In this document: piece by piece, positions 18,420 through 33,691 of the stretch
Layout of the letters: each line of letters opens with the position of its first letter
Position numbering within the stretch: position 1 is the first letter of the stretch
DNA from: Streptomyces sp. NWU339
GTDB lineage: Bacteria; Actinomycetota; Actinomycetes; Streptomycetales; Streptomycetaceae
NCBI RefSeq assembly: GCF_003143855.1
Contig: NZ_QFRK01000011.1
Location: 62,001-126,000, forward strand
Direction: 5' to 3'
Length of the DNA stretch: 64,000 nt
Position numbers and translations under genes: made by a program
Notes under the pieces: generated by a model
Seen by the model: only the letters and a program-made list of their open reading frames with translations
The model's database searches: none
What the model was told of the DNA's origin: nothing

Positions 18420-19547
18420 TTACGGGTGCAGGACCACCAGATCGTCCCTGTGTACGACCTCGCGCTCGTACGCGGGTCCGAGATCGCGGGCGAGATCGTG
18501 GGTGGAACGGCCGATCAGCCGGGGGATCTCCTTGGCGTCGAAGTTGACCAGGCCGCGGGCCACCGGTCGCCCCGCGCGGTCCCGCAGCTCGACCGGGTCA
18601 CCCGCGCTGAACTCGCCCTCGACGCCCGCGATCCCGGCCGGCAGCAGCGACATGCGGCGCTCCACGACCGCGCGCACCGCGCCGTCGTCGAGGGTGAGCG
18701 CGCCCTGCGGGGTGGACGCGTGCTGGAGCCAGAGCAGCCGGTCGGCGGAGCGCCGGCCGGTGGGGTGGAAGTACGTTCCGGTGTCCGCGCCGGCGAGGGC
18801 GTCGCCCGCGTGGATGGCGCTGGTCAGCACGACCGGGACGCCCGCGGCGGCGGCGATCCGGGCGGCCTCGACCTTGGTGACCATGCCGCCGGTGCCGACA
18901 CCGGCCTTCCCCGCGCTGCCGATGTCGACGTGGGCGAGGTCCTCGGGCCCCCACACCTCGGCGATCCGCGAGGTGCCGGGCCGCGCGGGGTCACCGTCGT
19001 ACACGCCGTCCACGTCGGACAGCAGGACGAGCAGATCGGCGTGGACCAGGTGGGCGACGAGGGCGGCGAGGCGGTCGTTGTCGCCGAAGCGGATCTCGTC
19101 GGTGGCGACGGTGTCGTTCTCGTTGACGACCGGGAAGGCGCCCATCGCGAGCAGCTTGTCGAGGGTGCGGGAGGCGTTGCGGTGGTGGGCGCGGCGGCTC
19201 ATGTCGTCGGAGGTCAGCAGCACCTGGCCGACGCGGACGCCGTAGCGGGCGAAGGAGGCCGTGTAGCGGGCCACCAGCAGGCCCTGGCCGACGCTGGCGG
19301 CGGCCTGCTGGCGGGCGAGGTCCCTGGGGCGCCGGGCGAGGCCCAGCGGGGCGAGGCCGGCGGCGATGGCACCGGAGGAGACGAGGACGAGTTCGCGCTC
19401 CCCTCCGGATCGCACTTTGGCGAGCACGTCGACGAGTGCGTCGACCCGGTCGGCGTCCAGACCGCCCGCCGCGGTGGTCAGCGAGGAGGATCCGACCTTG
19501 ACCACGATCCTGCGGGCCTCGCCCACGGCCTGCCTTGCCCGTGCCAC
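18420..19547 (-). CDS. proB: Glutamate 5-kinase
   Basis: ProB phosphorylates glutamate to gamma-glutamyl phosphate, the feedback-inhibited first step of proline synthesis. The 375-residue protein has the amino-acid-kinase domain (VVKVGSSSLTT near residue 14, VSSGAIAAG near 57, VVNENDTVA near 142, LLSDVDGVY near 177) and a C-terminal PUA domain (about 285-370), the usual two-domain bacterial form. The start is GTG at 19547 with a weak ribosome site. In many Streptomyces proB lies close to obg; here about 11.7 kb of glycopolymer genes separate them. Confidence 0.97.
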   Translation of the reverse strand: MARARQAVGEARRIVVKVGSSSLTTAAGGLDADRVDALVDVLAKVRSGGERELVLVSSGAIAAGLAPLGLARRPRDLARQQAAASVGQGLLVARYTASFARYGVRVGQVLLTSDDMSRRAHHRNASRTLDKLLAMGAFPVVNENDTVATDEIRFGDNDRLAALVAHLVHADLLVLLSDVDGVYDGDPARPGTSRIAEVWGPEDLAHVDIGSAGKAGVGTGGMVTKVEAARIAAAAGVPVVLTSAIHAGDALAGADTGTYFHPTGRRSADRLLWLQHASTPQGALTLDDGAVRAVVERRMSLLPAGIAGVEGEFSAGDPVELRDRAGRPVARGLVNFDAKEIPRLIGRSTHDLARDLGPAYEREVVHRDDLVVLHP

Positions 19548-19751: not shown

Positions 19752-21212
19752 GTGAACGGCGTGTCACCCAACGCTCGCCGCATACAGCGCATCCTCCTCA
19801 GATCGGGGAAGAGCCCCTACGACGTCGTACCGGTGGAGGAGGCCCTCCATCGCGACGTCTTCGCCAGCAACGCAGGCAACCTGATCTTCAGCGACGCCAC
19901 GCACAAGATCCTCGAGACGCCGCAGACCACGGTGGTGTCCAACGGTATTCGAACCGACGGCACCCCTCCGGGCCGCATCAACGAGGAGTACGACGCGTTC
20001 GTCGTGCCGCTCGCCAACGCCTTCCGGCCGTCGTTCGAGGCAAGCCTGCGCCGACTGACCCGGCTCATCAGCCAGTTGAAGATTCCCGTGGTCGTCGTCG
20101 GCGTCGGCGCCCAGGCGGGACTCGACTACGACCCGGCGCGGCTGAAGCCGATGGAGCCTGCGGTACGCGAGTTCGTCTCCGCCGTGCTGGACCGCAGCGC
20201 CTCGATCGGTGTGCGCGGCGAGTTCACCGAGAAGTACCTCAACGGCCTCGGTTTCAAGGACGTCGAGGTCATCGGCTGTCCCTCGCTGTTCATGTACGGC
20301 AAGGAACTCGCCGTGCAGAAGCGGACGCAGGAGCTGACCGCCGACTCCCGGATCGCGATCAACGGCTCGCACAGCGCGGTGCGCAGCCAGGGGCTGGGCC
20401 GGGTCATCACCCGGGCCCACGCCCGCTACCCGAACCTGCGGTTCATAGGCCAGAACCTCAGCGACGCACTGCAGTTGCACTGGCGGGACCTGTCCGACCC
20501 GAACGGGAAGGTCACCGGGATGCCGACGCATCCCGACCACCCGATGTACCGGGAGGACAAGGTCCGCGTCTACATCGACCCGGTGACCTGGATCGACGAT
20601 CTGCGGGACTTCGACTTCTCCTTCGGTTCCCGCATCCACGGCAACATCGCGGCGCTGCTCGCCGGTACGCCCGCGACCGTGCTCTGCTCGGACTCGCGCA
20701 CGCTGGAGCTGTGCCGCTACTTCGAGATCCCGCACCGCACGCTCGACAAGCTCTCCGGGGCCCCCGAGGAAACCGACCCGGCTCGGCTGTACGAGGAGAC
20801 CGACCTCAGCGGGCTGACCGGCAACCACCACGAGCGGTTCGAGCGGTTCACCTCGTTCCTGGACCGCAACGGGCTGGACAACACGTTCTCGCACGGCGAC
20901 GGCGGCACGGCCCACGAGGAGCGGATGCGCTCGCTGGACTTCCCCGGCGGCGTCCGCCCGTGGCTCGACACCGACCCGGCCGCGCTCGTCGCGCGTTTCG
21001 GCTGGCTGCACACCCGGGTCAGCGAACTGACCGCGGACAACGCCAAGTTGAAGAAGGAACTGGCCGGCGTCAAGGCCAGGACGAAGACCGGGACCAAGAC
21101 CGGCGCCGGGAAGACCGCCGTGGTCGCCCCCGCGTCCGGCTCGGTGTACCGCAGGGCCCGCCGGGTGGTGGGCCGTCCCCTGCGCCGAGCCCTGCAGGGC
21201 GGGCGGAACTGA
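19752..21212 (+). CDS. Polysaccharide pyruvyltransferase-family (CsaB-like) protein
   Basis: A 486-residue cytoplasmic protein resembling the PS_pyruv_trans family, which ketal-links pyruvate from PEP to wall polysaccharides. Typical features are the VVVVGVGAQAG segment (about residue 116), a GVRGEFTEKYL...VIGCPSLFMYG core, and the C-terminal DFSFGSRIHGNIAALLAG region with the conserved SRxHG-type histidine. Residues 425-450 form a short coiled coil, followed by a basic tail. It starts at GTG 19752 in a strikingly AT-rich patch with no good ribosome site. The following plus-strand gene is a polyol-phosphate-transferase-like protein, so it probably modifies a secreted glycopolymer. The donor and acceptor are not proven. 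Confidence 0.82.
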   Translation: MNGVSPNARRIQRILLRSGKSPYDVVPVEEALHRDVFASNAGNLIFSDATHKILETPQTTVVSNGIRTDGTPPGRINEEYDAFVVPLANAFRPSFEASLRRLTRLISQLKIPVVVVGVGAQAGLDYDPARLKPMEPAVREFVSAVLDRSASIGVRGEFTEKYLNGLGFKDVEVIGCPSLFMYGKELAVQKRTQELTADSRIAINGSHSAVRSQGLGRVITRAHARYPNLRFIGQNLSDALQLHWRDLSDPNGKVTGMPTHPDHPMYREDKVRVYIDPVTWIDDLRDFDFSFGSRIHGNIAALLAGTPATVLCSDSRTLELCRYFEIPHRTLDKLSGAPEETDPARLYEETDLSGLTGNHHERFERFTSFLDRNGLDNTFSHGDGGTAHEERMRSLDFPGGVRPWLDTDPAALVARFGWLHTRVSELTADNAKLKKELAGVKARTKTGTKTGAGKTAVVAPASGSVYRRARRVVGRPLRRALQGGRN

Positions 21213-21216
21213 CGGC

Positions 21217-21283
21217 GGCGGCCCGGGAAAGCCACCCGGGCCGCCCTTGGGGCCCGTCCGGGTGGATCCCGCCGGACGGGCCC
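21217..21283 (+). terminator. Two tandem GC hairpins between the plus-strand wall genes
   Basis: The first stem (GGCGGCCCGGG / CCCGGGCCGCC, 21217-21245) begins four bases after the stop codon. The second (GGGCCCGTCCGG / CCGGACGGGCCC, 21250-21283) follows at once. Together they should stop transcription, implying a separate promoter for the next gene. Confidence 0.8.
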
Positions 21284-21390
21284 ATACATCCAACGGTCAC
21301 TCCACCCTTCGTGGACACGCGCGTGTCGTCCGGACGTCGGTACGCGTTAACCCGTGCGTCCGTCTCCGCGACGCGCTTTGGAGTGACCGC

Positions 21391-23559
21391 GTGCCCCTGT
21401 CCCTGTCCCGCCGGTGGTTCCCGGCGGGGATCCGCCCACACCGTGCCTCGCCCCGCACCCCCGGCCCCGCCTCCGGGCGTCCGCCCGGCGGCCCGGCCGT
21501 CGCCAAGGTGACGGTGGCGGCCGTGCTGGTCGGCGCCTTCGTGGCGCAGGCCGCGGCGGCCCTGCTCCCGAACATCCCGCTGCTGCTCGCCGCGACCGCC
21601 GTCTGCCTGGCGGTCGAGGGCGTGCTGTACCGGTGGCAGCCCGGCACGCTGTCACTGCTGGCCAAGTCGCACGCGGACATCACCGTCCGCCACGTACTGC
21701 GGGATCTGCTCCTGGTAGTGGGTCTGCTGCGACTCGGGGAGAACGACCGGGAGCCGCAGTACGCGTGGCTCGTCGCCGGCCTGCTCGCCTTCTACGCGCT
21801 GCACTGCGCGATCCAGGCGGTCTCCGTGCTGGTCCGCCGCACCCGCACACTGCCCGTGGTGACCCGGAACATCGACGCCTCGGCCCTGCGCCTGACCCGC
21901 GCCCCGGCCGCGCTGCTGCGCCACCCCGGCCACCGGCTGCTGCTCCTCGGTCTGCCCACGACGGCCGGCCTGGCCTCGACGGCGGTGACCCGGACCCCCC
22001 TGCCCGCAGCGGCCGGGATCGCGTTGTCGCTGGTACTCGCGGCGGCGGGCCTGGGCGCACTGCTGCTGCGTCTGCTGCCCTCCCGGCGCCCGGCGGGCGA
22101 ACAGGAGGTACTCGACTGGTTCGACGCCTGGCTGGCCGACTACCGGCCCACGGTCGGCCTGTACTTCTCCGGCGGGGTCTCCTCCGCCTACCAGGCGAAC
22201 ATGTGGCTGGAGACGATGAGCGGGCTCGACGGCCGGCCGGTGATCGTCCTGCGCGAGCGGTTCATGGTGGCGAAGCTCGCGGCGACCGACATCCCGGTCG
22301 TGTGCCTGCCGAAGGTGTCCACCCTGATGCGGCTCGAGCGCTCCTCACTGCGGGTCCTCATCCACCCGTCGAACTCCGGCAAGACCTCACAGGTGCTGCG
22401 CATCCCCACGATCAAGCACGCCTTCGTCAACCACGGCGAGAGCGACAAGCTGTCGTCCTGCAATCCGTACGCGAAGGCCTACGACGAGGTGTGGGTGGCC
22501 GGTCCCGAGGCGCGTGAGCGGTACGCGCGGGCCGAGGTGGGAGTCGAGGACAAGGACGTGGTGGAGATCGGCCGTCCCCAACTGGACGCCGTGCGCCCGT
22601 ACGCGGGCCCACCGGCCGGTACGTACACCACGGTGCTGTACGCGCCGACCTGGGAGGGCTGGGACGGCAACCCGGGCAACACCTCGGTGCTCGCGGCCGG
22701 GGAGAACATCGTACGGGCGCTGCTCGCGGACCCGGGCGTACGGCTGCTGTACAAGCCGCACCCGCTGACCGGCTCGGTGGATCCGCGGACGGGCGCCGCC
22801 GACCGGCGCGTCCGGGAGCTGATCCGGGCGGCGAACCGGGAACGGTCCGCGGGAGCCGCCCGGCCCACGCGTTCCACCTCGGAACTGGACCGGCTCACCG
22901 CGGAGCTGGACCGGCTCACCGCGGCCGACGTCCGCCCGAGTGCCGACCAGGTCGAGCGGATGCTGGCGCAGTCCGCCCCGCCGCCGGGCCGGGCCGAGGC
23001 GGTGAGGGGGGCCACGGCGGCCTGGGAGCAGGCGTACTGGGCGTCGCTGCCGGAGGGGGAGCACCAGATCGTCACCGGCGTACGACCCGCCCTGTACGCC
23101 TGCTTCGACGTCGCCGACCTGCTGATCAGCGATGTGTCGAGCGTCATCAGCGACTTCCTGGCCAGCGGCAAGCCGTACGCGGTGGCGAACACCGGCGGGC
23201 TGTCCGAGGAGGCGTTCCGAACGGAGTTCCCGACGGTGGCGGCGGCGACCGTACTGACGCCGGACGCGGGCGGGGTGCCGGCCCTGCTGGAATCGGTCCG
23301 GAATCCGGAGAAGGACGAACTGGCGGATGCCCGAGCGGAGTTGAAACTGAGGCTGCTGGGCCCCGACGAGCCGACGGCCCAGGACCGCTGCAACGCGGCC
23401 CTGCGCGCCCTGTCCACGGCCGCGCTGCACCACAGGACGCGCGTGTCCCCTCTCCCCCCGGAGGCCCTGCTCCCCGCCCCACGCCAGAACCCCGAAACCC
23501 ACCCGGGAGCCGGCCCCGGAGCCGGAGCCGACACCGGAGCCCGGGGCGGTCAGGGGTAG
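21391..23559 (+). CDS. Membrane-integral polyol-phosphate (CDP-glycerol-type) transferase, copy 1
   Basis: A 722-residue protein. The N-terminal 250 residues hold about six membrane spans. The cytoplasmic half begins YFSGGVSSAYQANMWLE and continues as a Glyphos_transf-like (TagB/TagF-type) domain: HAFVNHGESDK, YAPTWEG, LLYKPHPLTG and SDVSSVISDFLASGKPY. The HG and KPHP histidines and the SDxSS motif are the catalytic and nucleotide-binding landmarks of teichoic acid polymerases. Unlike TagF it is integral to the membrane. GTG 21391 has GGAG seven bases upstream. A close paralogue is encoded at 25266-27374. The stop codon lies exactly at the edge of a MITE, so the Pro/Gly-rich C-terminus may have been altered. 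The polyol is unknown. Confidence 0.85.
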   Translation: MPLSLSRRWFPAGIRPHRASPRTPGPASGRPPGGPAVAKVTVAAVLVGAFVAQAAAALLPNIPLLLAATAVCLAVEGVLYRWQPGTLSLLAKSHADITVRHVLRDLLLVVGLLRLGENDREPQYAWLVAGLLAFYALHCAIQAVSVLVRRTRTLPVVTRNIDASALRLTRAPAALLRHPGHRLLLLGLPTTAGLASTAVTRTPLPAAAGIALSLVLAAAGLGALLLRLLPSRRPAGEQEVLDWFDAWLADYRPTVGLYFSGGVSSAYQANMWLETMSGLDGRPVIVLRERFMVAKLAATDIPVVCLPKVSTLMRLERSSLRVLIHPSNSGKTSQVLRIPTIKHAFVNHGESDKLSSCNPYAKAYDEVWVAGPEARERYARAEVGVEDKDVVEIGRPQLDAVRPYAGPPAGTYTTVLYAPTWEGWDGNPGNTSVLAAGENIVRALLADPGVRLLYKPHPLTGSVDPRTGAADRRVRELIRAANRERSAGAARPTRSTSELDRLTAELDRLTAADVRPSADQVERMLAQSAPPPGRAEAVRGATAAWEQAYWASLPEGEHQIVTGVRPALYACFDVADLLISDVSSVISDFLASGKPYAVANTGGLSEEAFRTEFPTVAAATVLTPDAGGVPALLESVRNPEKDELADARAELKLRLLGPDEPTAQDRCNAALRALSTAALHHRTRVSPLPPEALLPAPRQNPETHPGAGPGAGADTGARGGQG

Positions 23560-23799
23560 GGCCTGTCCGGCGGACCAGGCCGCAGGAAATCGACGGTGCC
23601 TCATCGGCGCGGGTGAGCAGGAGCGATGGGTCCCCTCCCGCTCATGGGGGTCCCTCCCGCTCGAGCGAAGTCGAGAGTGGGGGAGAAGTCGAGAGTGGGG
23701 AAGAGTGACGACAACGCCGCTGGGGCCCCCTGCTCGAAGAGCTTGGGGGAGGGCGTGCCGGATCCCGCGTCTGTGGCATGACCCGCCGGACAGGCCCTA
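23557..23799. mobile_element. TA-flanked MITE with 17-bp terminal inverted repeats
   Basis: The 243-base segment begins TAGGGCCTGTCCGGCGG and ends with the exact complement CCGCCGGACAGGCCCTA. TA at both ends fits a duplicated TA target, the hallmark of IS630/Tc1-mariner-type elements. It has no coding capacity. An 18-base unit is repeated in tandem at 23667-23684 and 23685-23702 (one base different). It begins inside the stop codon of the plus-strand transferase gene and ends nine bases before the stop of the convergent glycosyltransferase gene. Similar sequences recur in Streptomyces genomes as far as I recall. Confidence 0.75.
23667..23702. repeat. 18-bp tandem duplication inside the MITE
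   Basis: Two adjacent copies of GAAGTCGAGAGTGGGGGA occur; the second ends in GGAA. This is probably a slippage product within the element. Confidence 0.85.
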
Positions 23800-23807
23800 G
23801 GGCGGTG

Positions 23808-25037
23808 TCATGCCGCCGTCGGGGTCTTCGGCTCCGGGGCGGGTCTCCCGGGCGAGGTCAGCAGGTGGCGGGCCCGACGGGCGGCGCGGCGCAGGACGGT
23901 GGCCGTGCCGCCCTCGCGGTAGCCGGGGAAGGCGCGGGCCTCCCGGGACGAGGCGAGGTAGACGGAGTCGGGGATGCCCGCCGCACGGTCACGGAAGTGC
24001 GGATACACGAGGTAGACGCGTCGGCCCCGCCGCTCCAGCAGGGCCGGAGCCTGCTTCCTCGACGCCGTGAACTTCACGGCGTCGAGGAGGAGTTCGAGCC
24101 GCTGTTCGGCCACCAGGTGCAGCCTCAGCCGTTCCTCGACCTTCAGGTGCCGGGCGACGTCGTCGCTCCAGTGGGCGTCCATCAGGGGCCTCGCCAGCTC
24201 CAGCTTGTGCCGCCGCACCCGGTCGCTGTCCTTGAGGAAGCGGGGGCCGAACTGCGGGAGCAGGGTGACGGTCAAGGGCCGCAACATGAGCCGGTCGCGC
24301 CGGGGGCCCTCGGGGACGAGGTCGGCGATCAGGTCCGTCAGGCGGCGGGCCGACTCGAAGCGCAGGGTGTAACTCCCGCTCTTGGTCACGTGCTTGCCGT
24401 CGTCGCGGCCCACCAGGTAGTAGCAGGTGTAATCGGCGATCACGGAGACGCCGTTCGCCCTGAGGTACGCCTCCATGGTGAACAGCGCGTCCTCGCCGGT
24501 GAACAGCGACTCGTCGAACCGTATGCCGTGCCGGACGAGTAACTCGCGGCGGAACAGCTTCTGCGCGCTGAGCGTGTACTTGATGTTGGAGGAGTGGACG
24601 TCCGTACGCTCCAGTGTGCGGCCCCACATGGACTTCGGGGCGCCCCGGTTGACGCCTTCGACCCGGCCGAGGACCACATCGGTGCCGGCCCGGTCGGCCA
24701 TGGCGACCATCCGCTGCAGGGCCTCGTGGCCCAGCCGGTCGTCGGCGTCCAGGAAGAAGACGTACCGCCCGGTGGCCTTGCCCAGGCCGATGTTGCGCGG
24801 GCCGCTGGGACCGCCCGAGTTCGCCTGCCGGATCACGGTGACCGGCATGGGAGCACGGCCCGCGAACTCCTCCAGGAACTCCCCCGTGCCGTCCGTCGAG
24901 CCGTCGTCGACGGCGATGACCTCTATGCGCTCCGGGTCGATGGTCTGTGCCTCCAGCGAGGCGAGGCACTCGACCAGATACGGCATCGCCTCGTACGCCC
25001 CGATGACCACGGTGACATCAGGCTGCGCCACGGTCAC
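23808..25037 (-). CDS. Family 2 glycosyltransferase
   Basis: A 409-residue cytoplasmic, membrane-associated GT-A enzyme. The nucleotide-sugar core spans residues 8-230: VTVVIGAYEA, VDDGSTDGT (43-51), RNIGLG, the DxD metal motif FFLDADD at 95-101, and the FTGEDALFT acceptor-side motif near 190. The last 180 residues are basic and helical, similar to TarP/TagA-side glycosyltransferases. GTG at 25037 has an AAGGGGG site four bases away, so the upstream ATG-like frame is leader. The gene lies downstream of the second polyol-phosphate transferase but behind a strong hairpin. It likely adds sugar to the glycopolymer; donor specificity cannot be read from the sequence. Confidence 0.9.
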   Translation of the reverse strand: MTVAQPDVTVVIGAYEAMPYLVECLASLEAQTIDPERIEVIAVDDGSTDGTGEFLEEFAGRAPMPVTVIRQANSGGPSGPRNIGLGKATGRYVFFLDADDRLGHEALQRMVAMADRAGTDVVLGRVEGVNRGAPKSMWGRTLERTDVHSSNIKYTLSAQKLFRRELLVRHGIRFDESLFTGEDALFTMEAYLRANGVSVIADYTCYYLVGRDDGKHVTKSGSYTLRFESARRLTDLIADLVPEGPRRDRLMLRPLTVTLLPQFGPRFLKDSDRVRRHKLELARPLMDAHWSDDVARHLKVEERLRLHLVAEQRLELLLDAVKFTASRKQAPALLERRGRRVYLVYPHFRDRAAGIPDSVYLASSREARAFPGYREGGTATVLRRAARRARHLLTSPGRPAPEPKTPTAA

Positions 25038-25183
25038 GTTTCCCCCTTGTTGCAGGATATTTCCCTCGTATCGCCTCATTCGCTACTTGTTAGACGGGCG
25101 TTCGAGGTAGGGGGTTGCCTCGAACGGCCCTTCAAGTGACCTATGTCATAAGGGAGTTCGGCCAACTGCGGGCCGACACGAAA

Positions 25184-25222
25184 GGCTCGGCCCCCGAGGA
25201 GTTGCTCCTCGGGGGCCGAGCC
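25184..25222 (-). terminator. Strong terminator after the second polyol-phosphate transferase
   Basis: An 18-bp perfect stem (GGCTCGGCCCCCGAGGAG and complement) with a TTG/CAA loop is followed on the minus strand by TTT. It lies 43 bases past the stop codon. Confidence 0.9.
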
Positions 25223-25265
25223 TGTGGGGTGTTCGAGTGGGTGCCGGGCGGGTGCCCGGAGCGGG

Positions 25266-27374
25266 TCAGCCCGCCCCGGCGCCCTCCGTCTCGCCGGTCA
25301 CCGACGCCGCCTGCACGGGCAGCGCGTCCGCCGGCTCCACGTCCGGTCCGCCGACCGCGGTCCGGGACTCCTGACCGAGGTTGCGCGTCTCGGCCTTCTG
25401 GGCGAGTCGGCCCACCGCGCTGTTGAACTGGTCGATGGACTTCGGCTCGTCCGGGCCCAGCAGGTAGCGCTTGAGCTCGCCCCGCTCCGCGGCCAGCGGA
25501 TCGCTCTCGGGCGCCCGGACGGCGGCGAGCAGCTCGTCGAGTCCGGCCGCGTCGTTGGACAGGATCACCGCGGCGCGCACCGCCGTGTTCTGCCGCTTGA
25601 ACTCCTCCGCCCCCAGCCCGGCGGAGTCGGTCACCGCGTACGGCTTGCCGCTGGCGATGAAGTCGGAGACGACACTGGAGATGTCGGAGACCATCGCGTC
25701 GGAGACGTTGAAGCAGTCGTACAGGCGCGGCTGGGGGCCCGTGATGACGCGGTGCTCCCAGTCGGGGAAGGAACGCCAGTACGCGGTGTTCCACTCGGTG
25801 CGCAGCCGGGCGGCCTCCTCGTGCCGGGCCGCGTCGACCAGGCCGTCGCGGCTGGTCTCCGCCTCGTCGCCGCCCCCGGCGCCGTCGGTCAGCTCGGCCA
25901 ACCGGGCCTCGATGCGCGTCAGCTCGGCCGCGGCCCGCTCCTGGGCCGCCGTGTCCGCGGTGTAGCGGGGGTCGGCGGCGCGCTCGGCGGTGGCCTTCTC
26001 GATCAGCGCGGTGATCCGCTGGTGGGCGGCCTTGGCCTGCGCGCTGCGGGTTCCGGTGAACGGGTGCGGCTTGTAGAGCACACGGACCGCGGGGTCGGCC
26101 GCGACCAGCCGCTTCACGATGTTCTCGCCGGCCAGCAGGATCGAGGTGTTGCCGGGGTTGTCGTCCCAGCCCTCCCAGGTGGGGGCGTACAGGACCGTCG
26201 GACGGTGCCCGTCGGCGGCTTCGCCGCGGGCGCTCTCGATGGGGGCCAGCTGGGGGCGGCCGACCTCGACGATGTCGTCGTCGCGGACACCGACGTCGGC
26301 GATGGCATAGCGGTCGCGGCCCGCGCGGCCGGCCGTCCACACCTCGTCGTAGACCTTGCTGTACGGGTTCACGCTGGCGATCTTGTCGCTGTCGCCGTGG
26401 CCGATGAAGACGTGCTTCATGGTGGGAACGCGCAGCAGGTGGATGTTCTTGCCGACGTTCGCCGCGTACAGCGCGACGCGCACCGTGGACAGGTCCAGGT
26501 TCATCAGGTGCACCCCTCCGGGCACGCAGATGACGGGGACCGTGGTGGGGGCCAGGTTGCTCAGTATGACCCGCTCACGCAGGATGATCAGCGGACGGGT
26601 GTCCAGCTGCTCCATGGTCTCCAGCCACATGTTGACCTGGTAGGCGGAGTCCTTGGAGCCGGAGAAGTACAGCACGGTCTCCGGCCGGTAGTCGCTCAGC
26701 CAGCCGTCGACCGCTTCCAGCACCTTCTCGGCGTTCGGCGGTGTCCGCCGGCCCCGCACGTAGGGCACCAGGGCCAGCACGTACAGGACGCCCAGGAGCA
26801 CCGTGGCTCCGATGCCGGCGAAACCGATGACGGCCGAGTCCAGCGCCGCGGCGACCAGTATGCCGACGACCGCCGCGAGGTCGAGGTGGAGCATCTTCTC
26901 GGCGGCGCGGTGCATCAGTGCGCGCGGCGGCGCGTCCGGGATGCGGACGCGGGAGGCCAGGTCGATGTTGCGGGTGGCCACCGGCATGCGTCGGCGGTTG
27001 CGGATCAGCGTGGTCAGCGCGCCGTGCGGGGCCTGAAGACCGTAGAAGGCGATGAAGCAGGCGATCGCCCCGTAGTAGATCAGGTTGTCCGCGAGCGACA
27101 GGCGGGCCAGCAGCAGGATCAGCAGCAGCTGCCGGATCAGGAAGCGGATCGACAGGCCCGCCCGCACCTTGCTGAGGCGGTTGACCAGGTAGCTGCCCCT
27201 GTGGTGCAGGTAGTGGTCCGCCAGGTACGTCACGGCGGCCGCTGCCGCGAAGGCGGGGACGCTCGGGACGAGCGCGGCCAGCATGAGGCAGGGGAAGGCC
27301 AGCATCATGACGACCGCTGCGACCAGTTCGGCCGCGCTGCCCACCCGGGCGACGCGAATAGCGGTGGATATCAA
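25266..27374 (-). CDS. Membrane-integral polyol-phosphate (CDP-glycerol-type) transferase, copy 2
   Basis: A 702-residue paralogue of the 21391-23559 product with the same plan: about six spans in residues 1-215, then YFSGSKDSAYQVNMWLE, HVFIGHGDSDK, YAPTWEG, VLYKPHPFTG and SDISSVVSDFIASGKPY. The HG and KPHP histidines and the SDxSS motif of TagF-type polymerases are all intact. An acidic, helical insertion between KPHP and the SDxSS region is longer than in TagF. The frame opens with TTG at 27374, with AGCAGG about nine bases upstream; I see no better start. It lies just downstream of the cytidylyltransferase/SDR gene that could make its CDP-polyol donor. Confidence 0.85.
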   Translation of the reverse strand: MISTAIRVARVGSAAELVAAVVMMLAFPCLMLAALVPSVPAFAAAAAVTYLADHYLHHRGSYLVNRLSKVRAGLSIRFLIRQLLLILLLARLSLADNLIYYGAIACFIAFYGLQAPHGALTTLIRNRRRMPVATRNIDLASRVRIPDAPPRALMHRAAEKMLHLDLAAVVGILVAAALDSAVIGFAGIGATVLLGVLYVLALVPYVRGRRTPPNAEKVLEAVDGWLSDYRPETVLYFSGSKDSAYQVNMWLETMEQLDTRPLIILRERVILSNLAPTTVPVICVPGGVHLMNLDLSTVRVALYAANVGKNIHLLRVPTMKHVFIGHGDSDKIASVNPYSKVYDEVWTAGRAGRDRYAIADVGVRDDDIVEVGRPQLAPIESARGEAADGHRPTVLYAPTWEGWDDNPGNTSILLAGENIVKRLVAADPAVRVLYKPHPFTGTRSAQAKAAHQRITALIEKATAERAADPRYTADTAAQERAAAELTRIEARLAELTDGAGGGDEAETSRDGLVDAARHEEAARLRTEWNTAYWRSFPDWEHRVITGPQPRLYDCFNVSDAMVSDISSVVSDFIASGKPYAVTDSAGLGAEEFKRQNTAVRAAVILSNDAAGLDELLAAVRAPESDPLAAERGELKRYLLGPDEPKSIDQFNSAVGRLAQKAETRNLGQESRTAVGGPDVEPADALPVQAASVTGETEGAGAG

Positions 27375-27527
27375 CGGATAAACCTGCTCTTGGAGGGTGA
27401 GTGCCGGTTTGTGCCTATGGGTAACGCGTGGGCGAAGGATTCAGGCCCCCGCGAACACCCGCGCGCGAACTGCGTGAACGGGGGGCCGCAGAGGCCTGAA
27501 TTACCGGAGTCTATTTGCCGCCAATTA

Positions 27528-29024
27528 TTACACGCCGTCCTGACGATCCAGCACCGACGCGAGTGCCTGCTCGAATCCGGTGGCACGGGCCGCGCCCGCG
27601 GTCGGGTCCTGCTGCCGTACGTCGATGACATGGCCGGTGAGCTCGGAGAGCAGCACGTCCAGGGAGGTGCGGGCCACCGCCTCGGAGGACAGCAGGCTGC
27701 CCGCGGGCTCCTGGCCGAAGGCCTTGGTGCGCATCGGCGTGGCGGTGCGCTCCGGGTTGACGCAGTTGACGCGCACTCCGTCGCCGGCCCACTCGTCGGA
27801 CAGGGCCTGGGTGAGGTTCACCATCGCGGCCTTGGTCGAGGAGTAGAGGCTGTACTCGGCGCGTCCGCGGGTGTAGCTGCTGGAGGTGTAGAGCAGCAAC
27901 TGCCCCTTCGTCTCGGCGAGGTACTTGTACGCGGACCGGGCGATCTGCACCGGGGCCAGGTAGTTGACCTTCAGCGCCTCCTCGATGGTGGCGTTGTCGG
28001 TCTCGGCCAGCTTCCCGATGCGCAGCACGCCCGCCGTGTTGACGACGTAGTCGATGCGGCCGGTCTCCGCGTACGCCTTGGACAGCGCGTCGTCGACCTC
28101 CTCCGGGTTCTCGACGTGGGTGCCGGTGGTGGACCGCCCGAGCGGGTACACGGTGGCACCGTAGGACTCGGCGAGGTCGCAGACGTCCTTGCCGATGCCG
28201 TAGGAACCGCCGAAGACGACGAGGGTCTTGCCGGTGAGCAGCTCGCGGTAGGCCTCTTCGCCGATCTGCTCGGGCGCCGCCGTGGAGGCGAGCTGGAACA
28301 GCTTGTCGGCGATGAAGACGTCGACGGGCTGGGTGACCTTCATGTTGTACTCGTCACCCGCGACGACGTGGATCGGCACGTCGGGCAGGTACTTGAGCAC
28401 GACGGAGCAGTCGTCCGTGGCCTGGAAGTTGGGGTCGCCGGCGGCGACCTCGTAGGCGCGGCGGATCGTGGACAGCTTGAAGGCCTGCGGGGTCTGGCCG
28501 CGGCGCAGCCGGGAGCGGTCCGGGATCTCGGTGATGAACTCGCCGTCGTCGCCGTGCGTCCGCGTGACGATGATGGTGTCCGCGGACGGGATGGCCACGT
28601 CGACGGCCTGGTAGCGCTCCAGGGCGCTCACGCAGTCGTCGATGACGCGCTGTGACAGCAGGGGGCGGACGGCGTCGTGGAAGAGGACGTTGCGGTCCTC
28701 CCCCTCGGCCAGGCCCTCGCCGAGGACCGAGATGGCCCGCTCGGTGGTCTCGTTTCGTGTCGAGCCGCCCTCGATGACCCGGGTGACCTTCGTGAAACCC
28801 GCCTTGGCGACGATCTTCTCGACGTCGGACACGTAGCCCGGCGCCATCAGCACGATGATGTCGTCGATCGAGTCGGCGTTCTCGAAGGTGGTCAGGGTGT
28901 GCTCGATGACTGCCTTGCCGGCGATCTTCAGCAGTTGCTTGGGGATCGACAGACCCACCCGCTGGCCGGTGCCACCGGCCAGAATCACTGCGGTGGTACG
29001 GGGCTTGGCTATGTGCTGTGACAC
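27528..29024 (-). CDS. Bifunctional IspD-like cytidylyltransferase / SDR reductase (CDP-polyol synthase type)
   Basis: A 498-residue fusion. The N-terminal 235 residues are an IspD/TarI-type cytidylyltransferase: ILAGGTGQRVGLSIPKQLL at about 14-32, VLFHDAVRPL, and the DRSRLRRGQTPQAF segment. The C-terminal half is a short-chain dehydrogenase with VVFGGSYGIGKD, NTAGVL and the catalytic YSLYSSTKAA. The same fusion order occurs in Bcs1/Acs1 proteins that make CDP-ribitol from ribulose 5-phosphate for capsules and teichoic acids. I therefore infer CDP-ribitol or a similar polyol. GTG 29024 follows an AAGGTAGGT site. The downstream gene is the matching transferase, 153 bases away. Confidence 0.88.
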   Translation of the reverse strand: MSQHIAKPRTTAVILAGGTGQRVGLSIPKQLLKIAGKAVIEHTLTTFENADSIDDIIVLMAPGYVSDVEKIVAKAGFTKVTRVIEGGSTRNETTERAISVLGEGLAEGEDRNVLFHDAVRPLLSQRVIDDCVSALERYQAVDVAIPSADTIIVTRTHGDDGEFITEIPDRSRLRRGQTPQAFKLSTIRRAYEVAAGDPNFQATDDCSVVLKYLPDVPIHVVAGDEYNMKVTQPVDVFIADKLFQLASTAAPEQIGEEAYRELLTGKTLVVFGGSYGIGKDVCDLAESYGATVYPLGRSTTGTHVENPEEVDDALSKAYAETGRIDYVVNTAGVLRIGKLAETDNATIEEALKVNYLAPVQIARSAYKYLAETKGQLLLYTSSSYTRGRAEYSLYSSTKAAMVNLTQALSDEWAGDGVRVNCVNPERTATPMRTKAFGQEPAGSLLSSEAVARTSLDVLLSELTGHVIDVRQQDPTAGAARATGFEQALASVLDRQDGV

Positions 29025-29466
29025 AGGTGACCTACCTTGGGCATCAGGGAACTGCAAAATGGTCCCACTTGTGGTTACCGCAATGCAAGGTGAGCGACCT
29101 CCGTCGCATATGTGCGCGCCACCTGTCATTCACCTGGGATCCCCAGGTGGTCGGCACCGGTTCCCCCGGACGCCCCGGAAATCTCTGTGAGTAACTGCAC
29201 AGGTCACCGGCCCGCCGCGGCGGGTGTCCCGGGCGGGCGCGGCGGCGGGCCGGGGCGCGGCCGGCGGCCGCGCCCCGGCCCGGGAACCGCGGATCTTCAC
29301 CCGCCGAGGGCGGGACTGCACCATTTCTTCATATTCGGGAGCACCGCAAAGGATGAAGCGCCCGACAACCCGAAATTCGTCTGGTCCGCCCGCTCTTTGC
29401 GGGGGAATTCCATATGAAGATCCGGCGGTTTTTCGGTATCGGCGGGAGCGGGACGACGGCCGGTGG
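29025..29466. other. 442-bp intergenic region with two strong hairpins and an unexplained low-GC stretch
   Basis: Three things are visible. A palindrome CACCTGGG-atc-CCCAGGTG lies at 29131-29149. An 18-bp GC stem with almost no loop lies at 29246-29282 and would terminate minus-strand transcripts. Between 29297 and 29413 the composition drops, and a 38-codon minus-strand frame (ATG to TGA, ending in WCSPALGG) can be read without a convincing ribosome site. The promoter of the cytidylyltransferase gene must also lie here. Confidence 0.55.
29246..29282 (-). terminator. GC-rich terminator hairpin downstream of phoD
   Basis: CGGGCCGGGGCGCGGCCG pairs perfectly with its complement two bases later. 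It lies about 185 bases after the phoD stop codon on the minus strand. Confidence 0.65.
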
Positions 29467-31020
29467 TCACACCAGGTGGACGCCGGGGCGGCCCGCCTCC
29501 ACCCGCAGCCGGGCCAGCGTGCGCGGTGTGGCCCGCGGCTGCACCACGGTGTCCACCACCCGCACCCGTGCGTCGATGCCCTCGCGGCGCACGTCGAACA
29601 GGTGGTAGCCGCGGTGGGCGTCGAGCAGCTTCCAGTGCGGGTTGTCCGCGCGCCGCGGGTCCCACTGCTCGCGGAAGGCGGCCTGGTCCTGGTCGCCGTT
29701 GCTGGAGATGGAGGTGCCGACGAACTCGGCGCCCACGACGGCGGACTTCGGGTCGGCGAAGTCCGCCTTGAGGTCGCTGACCATCGTGAGGTGGCGGTCG
29801 CCGGTGAGCACGACGGGGTTGCTCACCCGCCGGAACTCCTGCAGCAGCGTGTTTCGTTCGGCCTGGTAGCCGTCCCAGGCGTCGTAGAACCAGAGCTTGC
29901 CGGGACCGACCTGGAGGTCCGTCTCGGCCATCATGATCTGGGAGGCGATCAGGTTCCAGCGGGCGGGCGAGTGGCGCAGCCCGTCGACCAGCCACCGCTT
30001 CTGGGCGGCGCCGAGCATGGTCAGCGCGGGGTCCTGGGCGCCTTCCTGGCTGGTCGCCTGGTCGCTGCGGTACTGCCGGGTGTCCAGCACGTTGAGCCGG
30101 GCCAGCCGACCGAACTCCAGCCGGCGGTACATCCGGATGTGCGGACCGTTCGGGACGGCGCTCGCGCGTACCGGCATGTGCTCGTAGTACGCCTGGTAGC
30201 CCGCCGTCAGCCGGGCCGTGAACGCGTCGTGCGACTGCTTGTCGGGGTCCTGCGGGATCTCGCCGGCGAAGTCGTTGTCGATCTCGTGGTCGTCGAAGGT
30301 GACCACGAAGGGCGCGTTCGCGTGCATGGCCGCGAGGTCCGGGTCGGAGCGGTACTGGGCGTACCGGTTGCGGTACTGGGTCAGGCCGTACGGCTCCCCG
30401 GACCCCTCGTGGCGGCGCACGCCGGTCGCCGACGGGTTGGACTCGTAGATGTAGTCGCCGACGAACAGGACGACGTCCGGGTCCTGTTCCAGCATGTCGG
30501 CGTACGGCGTGAAGTAGCCGTGCTGCCAGTTCTGGCAGGAGGCGAGCGCGATCCGCAGCCTGCCGCCCGCGCTGTGCGCCGGGGGCGCGGTACGGGTGCG
30601 GCCGGTGCGCGAGAGCTGCCCTTCGACACGGAAGCGGTACCAGTACCGGGTGTCGGGACGCAGACCGCGCACGTCGACGTGGACGCTGTGCCCGTGGGCG
30701 GGCCTGGCCCAGGCGGTGCCCCGGCGGACGACCTTCTTGAAGCGGGCGTCCTGGGCGAGCTGCCACTCCACGGGCACCGGGAGGTCCGGCATGCCCCCGC
30801 CGTTCAGGGGCTCGGGAGCGAGCCGGGTCCACAGCACGATCCCGTCGGGCAGTGGATCGCCGGAGGCGACACCGAGGCTGAACACCCCGTCGGGCAACGG
30901 TTTCCGCCCCGCGGCCCGAGCGGTGGCCGGCAGCCACAGCTGGGCGGAGGCCGCGGCGCCGAGTACGGCGGCGCCGGTGGTCAGAACGCGTCGGCGGTCG
31001 GGCGAAACTGTTCCGGACAT
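29467..31020 (-). CDS. phoD: Tat-exported alkaline phosphatase/phosphodiesterase PhoD
   Basis: A 517-residue secreted enzyme. A Tat signal (SPDRRRVLTTG, then a hydrophobic Ala/Leu core ending near ATARA-AG at about residue 36) opens the protein. A PhoD_N domain follows, and the metallophosphatase domain shows FVGDYIYE, TFDDHEIDND and TGDRHLTMVSD, which bind the Ca/Fe centre. PhoD enzymes release phosphate from esters and diesters, including teichoic acids. ATG 31020 has a GGGGAG site eight bases upstream. Its place at the end of a wall-glycopolymer locus suggests polymer turnover or phosphate scavenging. I looked for PHO boxes upstream and found no convincing direct repeat. Confidence 0.93.
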   Translation of the reverse strand: MSGTVSPDRRRVLTTGAAVLGAAASAQLWLPATARAAGRKPLPDGVFSLGVASGDPLPDGIVLWTRLAPEPLNGGGMPDLPVPVEWQLAQDARFKKVVRRGTAWARPAHGHSVHVDVRGLRPDTRYWYRFRVEGQLSRTGRTRTAPPAHSAGGRLRIALASCQNWQHGYFTPYADMLEQDPDVVLFVGDYIYESNPSATGVRRHEGSGEPYGLTQYRNRYAQYRSDPDLAAMHANAPFVVTFDDHEIDNDFAGEIPQDPDKQSHDAFTARLTAGYQAYYEHMPVRASAVPNGPHIRMYRRLEFGRLARLNVLDTRQYRSDQATSQEGAQDPALTMLGAAQKRWLVDGLRHSPARWNLIASQIMMAETDLQVGPGKLWFYDAWDGYQAERNTLLQEFRRVSNPVVLTGDRHLTMVSDLKADFADPKSAVVGAEFVGTSISSNGDQDQAAFREQWDPRRADNPHWKLLDAHRGYHLFDVRREGIDARVRVVDTVVQPRATPRTLARLRVEAGRPGVHLV

Positions 31021-31242: not shown

Positions 31243-31318
31243 GGAGCGTGCCGCGAGCCCGGCACGCTCCACACGACAGGCCCTGGGACCTGTCCGGCCC
31301 AGTGCCTCGACAGGCACT
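31243..31318 (-). terminator. Tandem hairpins after obg
   Basis: AGTGCCT/AGGCACT (31301-31318) overlaps the obg stop codon. A second 10-bp perfect stem GGAGCGTGCC/GGCACGCTCC (31243-31270) follows. The rest of the roughly 300-base gap to phoD shows no gene. Confidence 0.7.
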
Positions 31319-32753
31319 AGAACGGCTTGAAGTCGCCGTACTCCCGCTCGGCCTCGTCCCGTTCGGCCTGCCGCTCGCGGCGTCGCTGGGCAGCCGGGCG
31401 GGGCGCCTCCAAGCGGTGGTCCTCGCCGCGCCGGCCGAGCATCTCCGCACCGGCGGTCACCGTCGGCTCCCAGTCGAAGACGACCGCGTTGTCCTCGGGG
31501 CCGATGGCGACACCGTCGCCGGACCGGGCGCCGGCCTTCACCAACGCGTCCTCCACACCGACCCGGTTGAGCCGGTCGGCGAGGTAGCCGACGGCCTCGT
31601 CGTTGTTGAAGTCGGTCTGGCGGACCCAGCGTTCGGGCTTCTCGCCGCGCACCCGGAACAGTCCGTCGTCCTCGCGGGTGACGGTGAACCCGGAGTCGTC
31701 CACGGCCTTGGGCCGGATGACGATGCGGGTCGCCTCCTCCTGCGGCCTGGCGGCCCGCGCCCGGGCCACCGACTCGGCGAGCGCGAACGACAGCTCCCGC
31801 AGCCCGAGGTGGGCGACGGCGGACACCTCGAAGACGCGGTAGCCGCGCGCCTCCAGGTCGGGCCGGACCATCTCGGCGAGGTCCTTGCCGTCCGGTACGT
31901 CGGTCTTGTTGAGGACGACGATGCGGGGGCGGTCGTCGAGGCCGCCGTACTGCCGCAGTTCCTCCTCGATGATGTCGAGGTCGGAGAGGGGGTCGCGGTC
32001 CGACTCCAGCGTCGCGGTGTCCAGCACGTGCACGAGCACGCTGCACCGCTCCACGTGCCGCAGGAACTCGAGCCCCAGGCCCTTGCCCCGGCTGGCGCCC
32101 GGGATGAGCCCCGGCACGTCGGCGATGGTGTAGACGGTCGACCCGGCGGTGACGACGCCCAGGTTGGGCACGAGGGTGGTGAACGGATAGTCGGCGATCT
32201 TGGGCTTGGCCGCGGAGAGCACGGAGATCAGCGAGGACTTCCCCGCGCTCGGATACCCGACCAGTGCCACGTCGGCGACGGTCTTCAGCTCCAGGACGAT
32301 GTCCTGCAGCTCCCCCGGCACACCGAGCAGCGCGAACCCGGGCGCCTTGCGCCGCGCGGAGGCGAGGGCGGCGTTCCCGAGCCCGCCCCGGCCGCCCTGG
32401 GCGGCGACGTACGAGGTCCCGTTCCCGACCAGGTCGGCGAGCACGTTGCCCGCCTTGTCGAGGACGACGGTTCCGTCCGGCACCGGCAGGACCAGGTCCT
32501 GACCGTCCTTGCCGCTGCGGTGGCCGCCCTCGCCGGGCTTGCCGTTGGTGGCCTTGCGGTGCGGGGAGTGGTGGTACTCGAGGAGCGTGGTCACGGACTG
32601 GTCGACGGTCAAGATGACATCGCCGCCCCGCCCGCCGTTCCCGCCGTCCGGTCCGCCCAGCGGCTTGAACTTCTCGCGGTGGACGGAGGCACAGCCGTGG
32701 CCTCCGTTACCCGCGGCGACATGCAGTTCGACGCGGTCCACGAAGGTGGTCAT
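31317..32753 (-). CDS. obg: GTPase Obg (CgtA), ribosome assembly and sporulation
   Basis: A 478-residue GTPase with the glycine-rich Obg fold (1-158), a G domain (GYPSAGKSS at 166-174, DVPGL near 213, NKTD near 291) and a C-terminal OCT domain with a basic tail ending in the charged REYGDFKPF. Obg assists 50S assembly; in Streptomyces it also influences the onset of aerial growth. ATG 32753 is preceded by GGAGG eight bases away; upstream in-frame codons lack a site. It is the last gene of the conserved rplU-rpmA-obg cluster, with a 117-base gap to rpmA. Confidence 0.97.
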
Positions 32754-32870
32754 GGGGGGTGCCTCCAGAGACAGTGCGGTGTACGTGTGTACGTGTTTCC
32801 TGGTCAACACGCGAAAGGCGGACCCGCCTTCCCGCCAGGGAAGTGAGGTCCGCCTCGCGAAAGTTTCCGA

Positions 32871-33139: not shown

Positions 33140-33460
33140 TTACTTCGCAGCCGTGGGGATCTCAGTGACCTTGATCGCCGTGTACTGCTGGCGGTGGCCC
33201 TGACGACGGCGGTAGCCGGTCTTGTTCTTGTAGCGCAGAATGTCGATCTTCTGGCCCTTGTGGTGGTCCACGACCTCGGCCTGGACCTTGACACCGGCTA
33301 GCACCCACGGGTCGCTGGTCACGGCCTCGCCGTCGACGAGGAGCAGGGTCGAGAGCTCGACCGTGTCGCCGACCTTGGCGGTGGAAATCTTGTCAACCTC
33401 AACGATGTCGCCGACAGCAACCTTGTGCTGGCGACCACCGCTGCGCACGATGGCGTACAC
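33140..33460 (-). CDS. rplU: Ribosomal protein bL21
   Basis: The 106-residue protein begins at GTG 33460 ([14 protein letters not shown]) and ends EIPTAAK. The bL21 signature ([18 protein letters not shown]) is intact. The longer open frame upstream of the GTG is leader; a purine-rich GAGAGAGA tract serves as ribosome site. It is the first gene of the rplU-rpmA-obg group. The 230-base leader region between it and the ankyrin gene should contain the promoter, but I cannot assign clear hexamers. Confidence 0.97.
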
Positions 33461-33691
33461 GCGGATCTCTCTCTCACTCGATGAACGGCACCCCGCAGGC
33501 CAGCCGCCCGACAGACACACGGGCAACCTCTCCCGAGCCGACCCGCGCCCGGGAGGAAGAGGTTTACGGGGATGTGGCGTCCCGATGGACACGCCGACGG
33601 TCAAGGTTACGAGGACATGCCCCGACCGGTCAAACCGGGCCCGGTCGATCGGTGGACACCGTGCCGGACGGGGGCGGCCCCACCCGGTGGA

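Follow-up and report, generated by a model that had tools for sequence, protein, structure and literature searches.

The window analysed here is a stretch of 64,000 nucleotides from Streptomyces sp. NWU339, part of one contig (C37) of a 9.43-Mb assembly. It carries a candidate locus for a ribitol-phosphate wall teichoic acid (WTA): six open reading frames (ORFs), P1 to P6, between proB, encoding glutamate 5-kinase (18420–19547, minus strand), on the left and obg (31317–32810, minus strand) on the right. An earlier note made from the sequence had placed the six genes here, and the ORF listing together with the Pfam families confirms them. P1 (19752–21212, plus strand) is like polysaccharide pyruvyltransferases (PS_pyruv_trans, PF04230, 64.4 bits against a cut-off of 25.3). 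P2, also called T1 (21391–23559, plus), and P4, or T2 (25266–27374, minus), are membrane-fused TagF-like polyol-phosphate transferases, matching PF04464 with 25.4 and 32.6 bits, respectively, against a cut-off of 22.1. P3 (23808–25079, minus) is a TarS-like glycosyltransferase of family GT2 (PF00535, 110.8 bits; TarS_linker, PF22181, 51 bits), P5 (27528–29129, minus) is a TarIJ-type fusion of a cytidylyltransferase (IspD, PF01128, 157.8 bits) and a short-chain dehydrogenase/reductase (SDR; PF00106, 106.9 bits), and P6 (29467–31020, minus) is a PhoD-type phosphodiesterase (PF09423, 344.9 bits; PF16655, 117.5 bits). A sequence like a miniature inverted-repeat transposable element (MITE) lies between P2 and P3 (23557–23799).

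The nature of the donor is suggested by P5. It scores 170.7 bits with the NCBIfam model of D-ribitol-5-phosphate cytidylyltransferase (NF001183), above the cut-off of 166, and 169.7 bits with the ispD model (TIGR00453), below the cut-off of 181.3; it also matches the solved structure 4jis (E = 2.4e-35). By these comparisons P5 looks like a TarIJ-type synthase of cytidine diphosphate (CDP)-ribitol. The reduction of ribulose 5-phosphate and activation with cytidine triphosphate (CTP) would be common to P5, TarI/TarJ of Staphylococcus aureus and Bcs1/Acs1 of Haemophilus influenzae. Bcs1 is, like P5, a cytidylyltransferase fused to an SDR, whereas TarJ of S. aureus is a separate zinc-type reductase.

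We surveyed a sample of 121 genomes of the window's genus, each at least 95% complete, all of which contain proB (E ≤ 1e-80) and obg (E ≤ 1e-100). With a cut-off of E ≤ 1e-60 and a query beginning at 29015 (the listed start is 29129 and the true start is not fixed), P5 had 68 matches in 65 of the 121 genomes. Every one of the 68 has a membrane-fused TagF gene beside it, sharing contig and strand; 67 of these genes are within 429 bp and one is at 2162 bp, with 62 downstream and 6 upstream. Fifty-eight of the P5 matches are inside the proB–obg interval, and the pairing holds for the other ten too. Membrane-fused TagF genes numbered 133 in this count (134 in the initial search): the 68 linked to P5, 48 unlinked in the interval and 17 unlinked elsewhere. 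Per genome, 36 have the P5-linked kind only, 29 both kinds, 29 the unlinked kind only and 27 none. A second set, the best 80 of 289 related loci, all from Streptomyces and skewed to close relatives, has P5 beside P4 in 79 loci, P3 in 76, P1 in 46 and P2 in 44 (more than 50% identity). The earlier view of six genes in one pathway is thus upheld for P3 and P5, which keep company with P4, and weakened for P1 and P2, which are variable, P2 belonging to a clade without a link to the CDP-ribitol synthase.

P4 and P2 are 43% identical, and both have a helical N-terminal membrane half and a catalytic half. For P2, relatives point to a GTG start at 21391, the listed TTG at 21247 probably being too early; the segment just upstream of this likely start (21300–21390) seems conserved in the translated reads of several relatives and is perhaps a promoter or leader. 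An AlphaFold model of P4, made with an alignment of 45 P2 and P4 relatives from the genus alone (A1), had a mean predicted local distance difference test score (pLDDT) of 74.6 and a predicted template modelling score of 0.69. Residues 229–664 form a GT-B fold, for which the best match in a VIA comparison had a Z-score of 15.5 and a root-mean-square deviation (rmsd) of 4.2 over 281 residues. A Foldseek search placed the solved TagF structure 3l7l third (E = 3.8e-4) among 13 matches at or below 0.001. The TagF motifs HG, G(Y/R)P, LYAPT, H and DxSS are present in order, as seen both in the alignment and in a profile comparison. When membrane-free relatives were added to give a 16-row alignment (A4), its comparison with four canonical TagF domains of the genus gave a probability of 97.8 and an E-value of 6.9e-13 over 247 columns, spanning HG, GRPQ, LYAPTW, KPH and SDISS. 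P2 and P4 thus resemble TagF (3l7i, which we take to come from Staphylococcus epidermidis, and related entries) in having a GT-B fold with the motifs of the catalytic region in the same order, and differ in their N-terminal membrane helices, in a long insert (about 445–535 in P4) and in having little sequence similarity to it. By these features and its pairing with TarIJ, P4 is probably a TagF-type ribitol-phosphate polymerase.

The wider family helps to define the catalytic module. When the phylum was searched with A1, 33 of 396 genomes had matches, including 16 from outside the genus. In A4, eight rows from other genera (L141–L148, ORFs of 383–516 residues, their starts unchecked) largely lack the membrane half, while three (L138–L140) have one. 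Two of these three, L138 and L139, are membrane-fused TagF relatives from genomes of another family of the class (G305 and G440) and lack the insert of P2 and P4. This insert follows the KPHP position and precedes H541; P2 and P4 share it, and the rows of other genera are without it. The earlier note had treated the motif YFSG...SAYQxNMWLE as a region preceding, and distinct from, the TagF half. This is ruled out, as the motif sits inside the GT-B fold and its residues F237, Y245, Q246 and W250 are invariant in all 16 rows of A4, including the membrane-free relatives. The catalytic module is therefore complete, and the difference lies in the membrane half. Searching solved structures with the P4 sequence gave no match up to E = 1, and the sole match of the A1 profile among them, to ribosomal eL8 (best E = 0.0012), was taken as chance. 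PHROGs returned no match for P1, P2 or P4.

A tree of 44 rows separates the two paralogues. All twelve correctly labelled P2-type rows from the interval fall into one clade (support 97/99) together with six of the nine unlinked rows found elsewhere, and this clade has no TarIJ-linked member; the other three unlinked rows group with six TarIJ-linked rows, and the P4-type rows make up a third group with weaker support (81/76). One row, L105_T1int_11885, is mislabelled, its place being that of the G049 gene beside TarIJ, and falls in that clade. The tree program flagged several long branches, among them those of L140 and L142. Since the P2 clade has no TarIJ-linked member, P2 probably carries out a different step from P4, with linkage an imperfect marker of clade.

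Several results weigh against P4 as a polymerase of the TagF family supplied with CDP-ribitol. The model is moderate, and its residues 325–373, with the putative catalytic HG motif, have pLDDT values below 50. GT-B enzymes other than TagF head the VIA list, so the fold alone is no proof of TagF activity. With A1 alone, just 28 columns could be aligned with the canonical TagF domains; as the strong profile value appeared after membrane-free relatives were added, it belongs to the wider family. Both P2 and P4 match PF04464 with low scores, along a portion of the model, and when the genome was searched with this family the one gene reported was on a different contig, neither P2 nor P4 being listed, so the match of these two to the family is weak. 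The 48 unlinked membrane-fused TagF genes in the interval show that the family is not bound to CDP-ribitol. Finally, one interval (L107) has a P4 type, a P2 type and a canonical TagF domain together, any of which may be the polymeriser.

Some of these points would suit another arrangement, in which P4 and P2 are TagB-like priming or transition enzymes that attach a single polyol phosphate, or a few, to the linkage unit, with the chain made by a canonical TagF encoded elsewhere. The genome does have a canonical TagF on another contig (C125, 423.6 bits), two membrane-bound paralogues could work at the start of a lipid-linked chain, the P2 clade occurs without TarIJ, and the L107 interval combines both membrane types with a canonical domain. 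However, the pairing of TarIJ with a membrane-fused TagF in 68 of 68 cases suggests that the latter is the main user of CDP-ribitol, and canonical TagF-type genes occur in some intervals without a membrane-fused one (for example L089 and L092). We consider priming by P4 and P2 a possible role, if a rather unlikely one, and keep P4 as the probable polymerase.

The remaining genes would modify the polymer. P3 matches 5tze in a phmmer search (E = 3.2e-42); this entry, titled 'Glycosyl transferase', and 5tz8 are, we assume, TarS of S. aureus. The GT2 domain and linker domain are common to both proteins. TarS has a C-terminal trimerisation region, and the longest TarS chain listed has 572 residues; P3 has 423, with no Pfam match past residue 333 and no trimerisation region in its Pfam hits. 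From this similarity P3 probably glycosylates the ribitol-phosphate chain. P1 had only a chance-level match among solved structures (E = 0.35) and is a variable member that may decorate the polymer with pyruvate. P6, read from 31020, opens with a twin-arginine-like signal, as judged by eye, and PhoD is present in 67 of the 73 T2 loci that contain obg among the best 80 of 289. Boxes like those of the phosphate regulon were not enriched in the window (4 matches, 6.25 expected).

TarIJ and TagF of the window are near obg, past which is an ORF (33140–33604) that we take, by eye from its N-terminus, to be L21; the genes after it look like ankyrin-type and catalase genes, also by eye. The core of such a locus was already described in 2025. 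In Streptomyces griseus, TarIJ (SGR_4956) and TagF (SGR_4957) are WTA proteins encoded near L21 and L27, nuclear magnetic resonance of the wall found ribitol phosphate in a product released from it, and the genes are treated together with a variable teichuronic-acid (utr) cluster, SGR_4943–SGR_4957 (PMC13274773). Homologues in 20 selected Streptomyces genomes were typically at the same genomic locus (PMC13274773). The kind of locus is therefore known, because the TarIJ–TagF pair beside L21/L27 and its ribitol polymer are published. As far as the cited part of that account goes, the two loci have in common TarIJ and TagF (near L21/L27 in S. griseus, near obg and the putative L21 here), a ribitol-phosphate backbone (predicted for the window), a TarS-like glycosyltransferase and content that varies between species. 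Unlike in S. griseus, no utr cluster was recognised in the approximately 9 kb past obg, where starts were taken by eye and beyond which the genome was not searched for utr. In Streptomyces coelicolor, SCO2589–SCO2590 and SCO2592 presumably lie between proB and obg. These three are cited as WTA genes or their glycosyltransferases, SCO2589 and SCO2590 being listed as CDP-glycerol glycerophosphotransferases, with neither substrate nor membrane topology given in the passages concerned (PMC3937824, PMC6629963). The cited part of the S. griseus account likewise makes no mention of TagF membrane helices, of proB or obg, or of a genus-wide gap (PMC13274773). Among titles and abstract openings of the open-access literature, we found nothing on a TagF–membrane fusion or an obg–proB site, and no paper combining proB, obg, Streptomyces and teichoic. 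With sequence, fold, gene linkage and this published parallel behind it, the earlier proposal that the locus makes an anionic wall glycopolymer, by means of CDP-polyol synthesis and membrane-anchored transferases, is supported.

The membrane half sets P2 and P4 apart from the TagF and TagB proteins that have been characterised, which are soluble or peripheral and not known to have integral helices (a property outside the Pfam definition). The earlier note had stressed this contrast, and both hydropathy and AlphaFold bear it out. Its figure of about six spans is possible: crude hydropathy gave four spans in each protein, and the P4 model has six helices (14–35, 39–58, 72–91, 98–127, 166–178 and 181–206). 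Folded alone, this half (227 residues) reached a pLDDT of 79.8. When it was compared with 236 chains by VIA, the nine best matches were all CDP-alcohol phosphotransferases (phosphatidylinositol-phosphate and phosphatidylglycerol-phosphate synthases and PgsA1), with Z-scores of 8.5–9.9 and rmsd values of 3.6–4.7 over 156–174 residues. Helical bundles reach such Z-scores by chance, and the tenth row, a designed helical protein with a Z-score of 8.2, is tied with the lower of the nine. By Foldseek, the best E-value for a CDP-alcohol phosphotransferase was 2.2. These enzymes have the motif DxxDGxxAR(x8)GxxxDxxxD; the invariant columns of the N-terminal half include no acidic quartet that fits it. 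An hhalign comparison with seven CDP-alcohol phosphotransferases gave a probability of 0.2; the seven had been chosen by a motif pattern, and of the eight PF01066 loci of the window's genome two, L158 and L159, were dropped as off-pattern. Homology is thus unsupported by sequence, and the likeness to CDP-alcohol phosphotransferases (PF01066) is weak, concerns the modelled fold only and remains a lead. One speculative extension, which we regard as doubtful, is that a degenerate CDP-alcohol phosphotransferase domain that lost its catalytic aspartates was fused to the TagF-type catalytic domain and serves as a dock for the CDP-polyol or the lipid-linked acceptor, with transfer left to the GT-B domain, and that selection by toxins that bind the cell surface continually swaps such modules at the obg–proB junction. 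If true, a single chain would unite two known ways of using CDP-alcohols.

A membrane domain of this kind could also present a glycolipid acceptor, the locus then serving a lipid-anchored polymer like lipoteichoic acid. Its likeness in fold to lipid-processing CDP-alcohol enzymes would fit, as would two points in the cited part of a published account: Actinobacteria have no clear LtaS orthologues, and the lipoteichoic and wall polymers of Streptomyces hygroscopicus have one backbone, suggesting shared enzymes (PMC3196553). On the other side, the lipoteichoic acid of S. hygroscopicus is a glycerol phosphate as far as that account goes, whereas the donor enzyme here is of the ribitol type, and the S. 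griseus product comes off the wall (PMC13274773). A lipid-anchored product is therefore improbable.

The position of the genes is less expected, as is the TagF–membrane fusion. proB and obg are on one contig in 113 of the 121 genomes, on the same strand in all 113; the eight genomes with the two on different contigs are outside the gap counts. The gap is at least 1910 bp in 111 of the 113 and 135 or 152 bp in the other two. In a class-wide sample of 88 genomes, eight of the genus and 80 others, both genes were found in 79 of the 80 outsiders, and in 77 of these 79 they are within 464 bp of each other, the exceptions having the genes 678 kb apart (G305) or on different contigs (G539). The junction is thus closed in almost every outsider of the sample, whereas almost every genus member sampled has it open. 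Membrane-fused TagF genes are in 89 of the 113 intervals, with T2 alone in 40, T1 alone in 32, both in 17 and neither in 24; types were split at a bit score of 850, by which the single gene of G107 counts as T1 though it is beside TarIJ.

Gene content was read in 20 of the 113 intervals, hand-picked rather than random (13 of the 24 that lack a membrane-fused TagF and 7 of the 89 that have one), with genes called by a simple script and the GT2-type label given by BLAST to P3 at E ≤ 1e-8. Eighteen of the 20 hold at least one membrane-fused TagF, GT2-type or Stealth-cluster gene; L095 has PhoD only and L100 is empty. Pfam searches with 20 interval proteins, two of which had no match, found GT2–TagF fusions (337–426 bits), a TagF domain without GT2 (364 bits), Stealth proteins, sugar-nucleotide enzymes, acyltransferases and one CDP-alcohol phosphotransferase. 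Intervals also contain trypsin-like, ALF-repeat and FG-GAP proteins, which have no obvious connection with a polymer. The obg–proB junction is thus a genus-wide site with varying sets of wall-polymer genes. One interval (L101, genome G025) has a P2-type gene with two Stealth-cluster genes, a CDP-alcohol phosphotransferase (PF01066) and an SGNH–acyltransferase fusion. Stealth proteins are also at the site in L091 (G074, with trypsin-like and ALF-repeat proteins) and L103 (G112, with FG-GAP). Elsewhere in the genome of the window, two adjacent strong Stealth matches (L149 and L150; G000:C1:403245-405325) perhaps mark a further phosphopolymer locus.

The earlier note had taken both the separation of proB from obg and the MITE as signs of insertion or exchange. 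For the split, this is right only in a deep sense, most of the genus having an open junction; as a sign of a recent event in this strain it fails, the split being common to the genus and adjacency to the outsiders. The MITE-like element itself is confirmed: it is about 245 bp long and has inverted ends of 29 nt (86%) and 50 matches, full or partial, across the genome, in a count that scored 40 of 121 first-look candidates. Its exact 9-nt end string is missing from all 39 related P2–P3 junctions in an exact-string search, so the insertion looks recent, the only feature of the locus that does. The left end contains the TAG stop codon of P2, and so the insertion probably altered the extreme C-terminus alone, a poorly conserved part of P2. 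A recently acquired, strain-specific accessory island, which the recent MITE-like element and the differences in interval content between species might suggest, is hardly credible, since the genus and class surveys argue against it, with the interval open in 111 of 113 genomes, TarIJ in 65 of 121 and proB and obg on one strand throughout.

Taken together, the window likely carries a Streptomyces ribitol-phosphate WTA locus, with P5 for donor synthesis, P4 as polymerase, P3 for glycosylation and P1, P6 and P2 for further steps. Computation gives the protein families, the GT-B fold, the TagF motifs, the TarIJ linkage and the position; from these we infer which substrates are used, in which direction the pathway runs, what the membrane domain does and what P1, P2 and P6 contribute. 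P5 would reduce ribulose 5-phosphate to ribitol 5-phosphate and convert this to CDP-ribitol. P4, held to the membrane by its N-terminal helical domain, would lengthen a ribitol-phosphate chain at the cytoplasmic face, taking the units from CDP-ribitol and building on a lipid-linked acceptor. P3 would add a sugar to the ribitol units, P1 would probably add pyruvate to a sugar, and the exported P6 may trim or recycle the finished polymer. The P2 paralogue may serve another donor, acceptor or step, for example in the linkage region or a side chain.

The locus is of a known kind, with a variant polymerase architecture, at a variable site found throughout the genus, and its function is mostly ordinary. 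Its interest is in part ecological, as a teichuronic-acid polymer on WTA is a receptor for umbrella toxins between Streptomyces species, and the cited part of the S. griseus account leaves the backbone-building enzyme uncharacterised (PMC13274773). The membrane-fused TagF beside every CDP-ribitol synthase sampled is a concrete candidate for this backbone builder, and the obg–proB junction is an easy spot to search for genes of phosphate polymers in a given Streptomyces strain.

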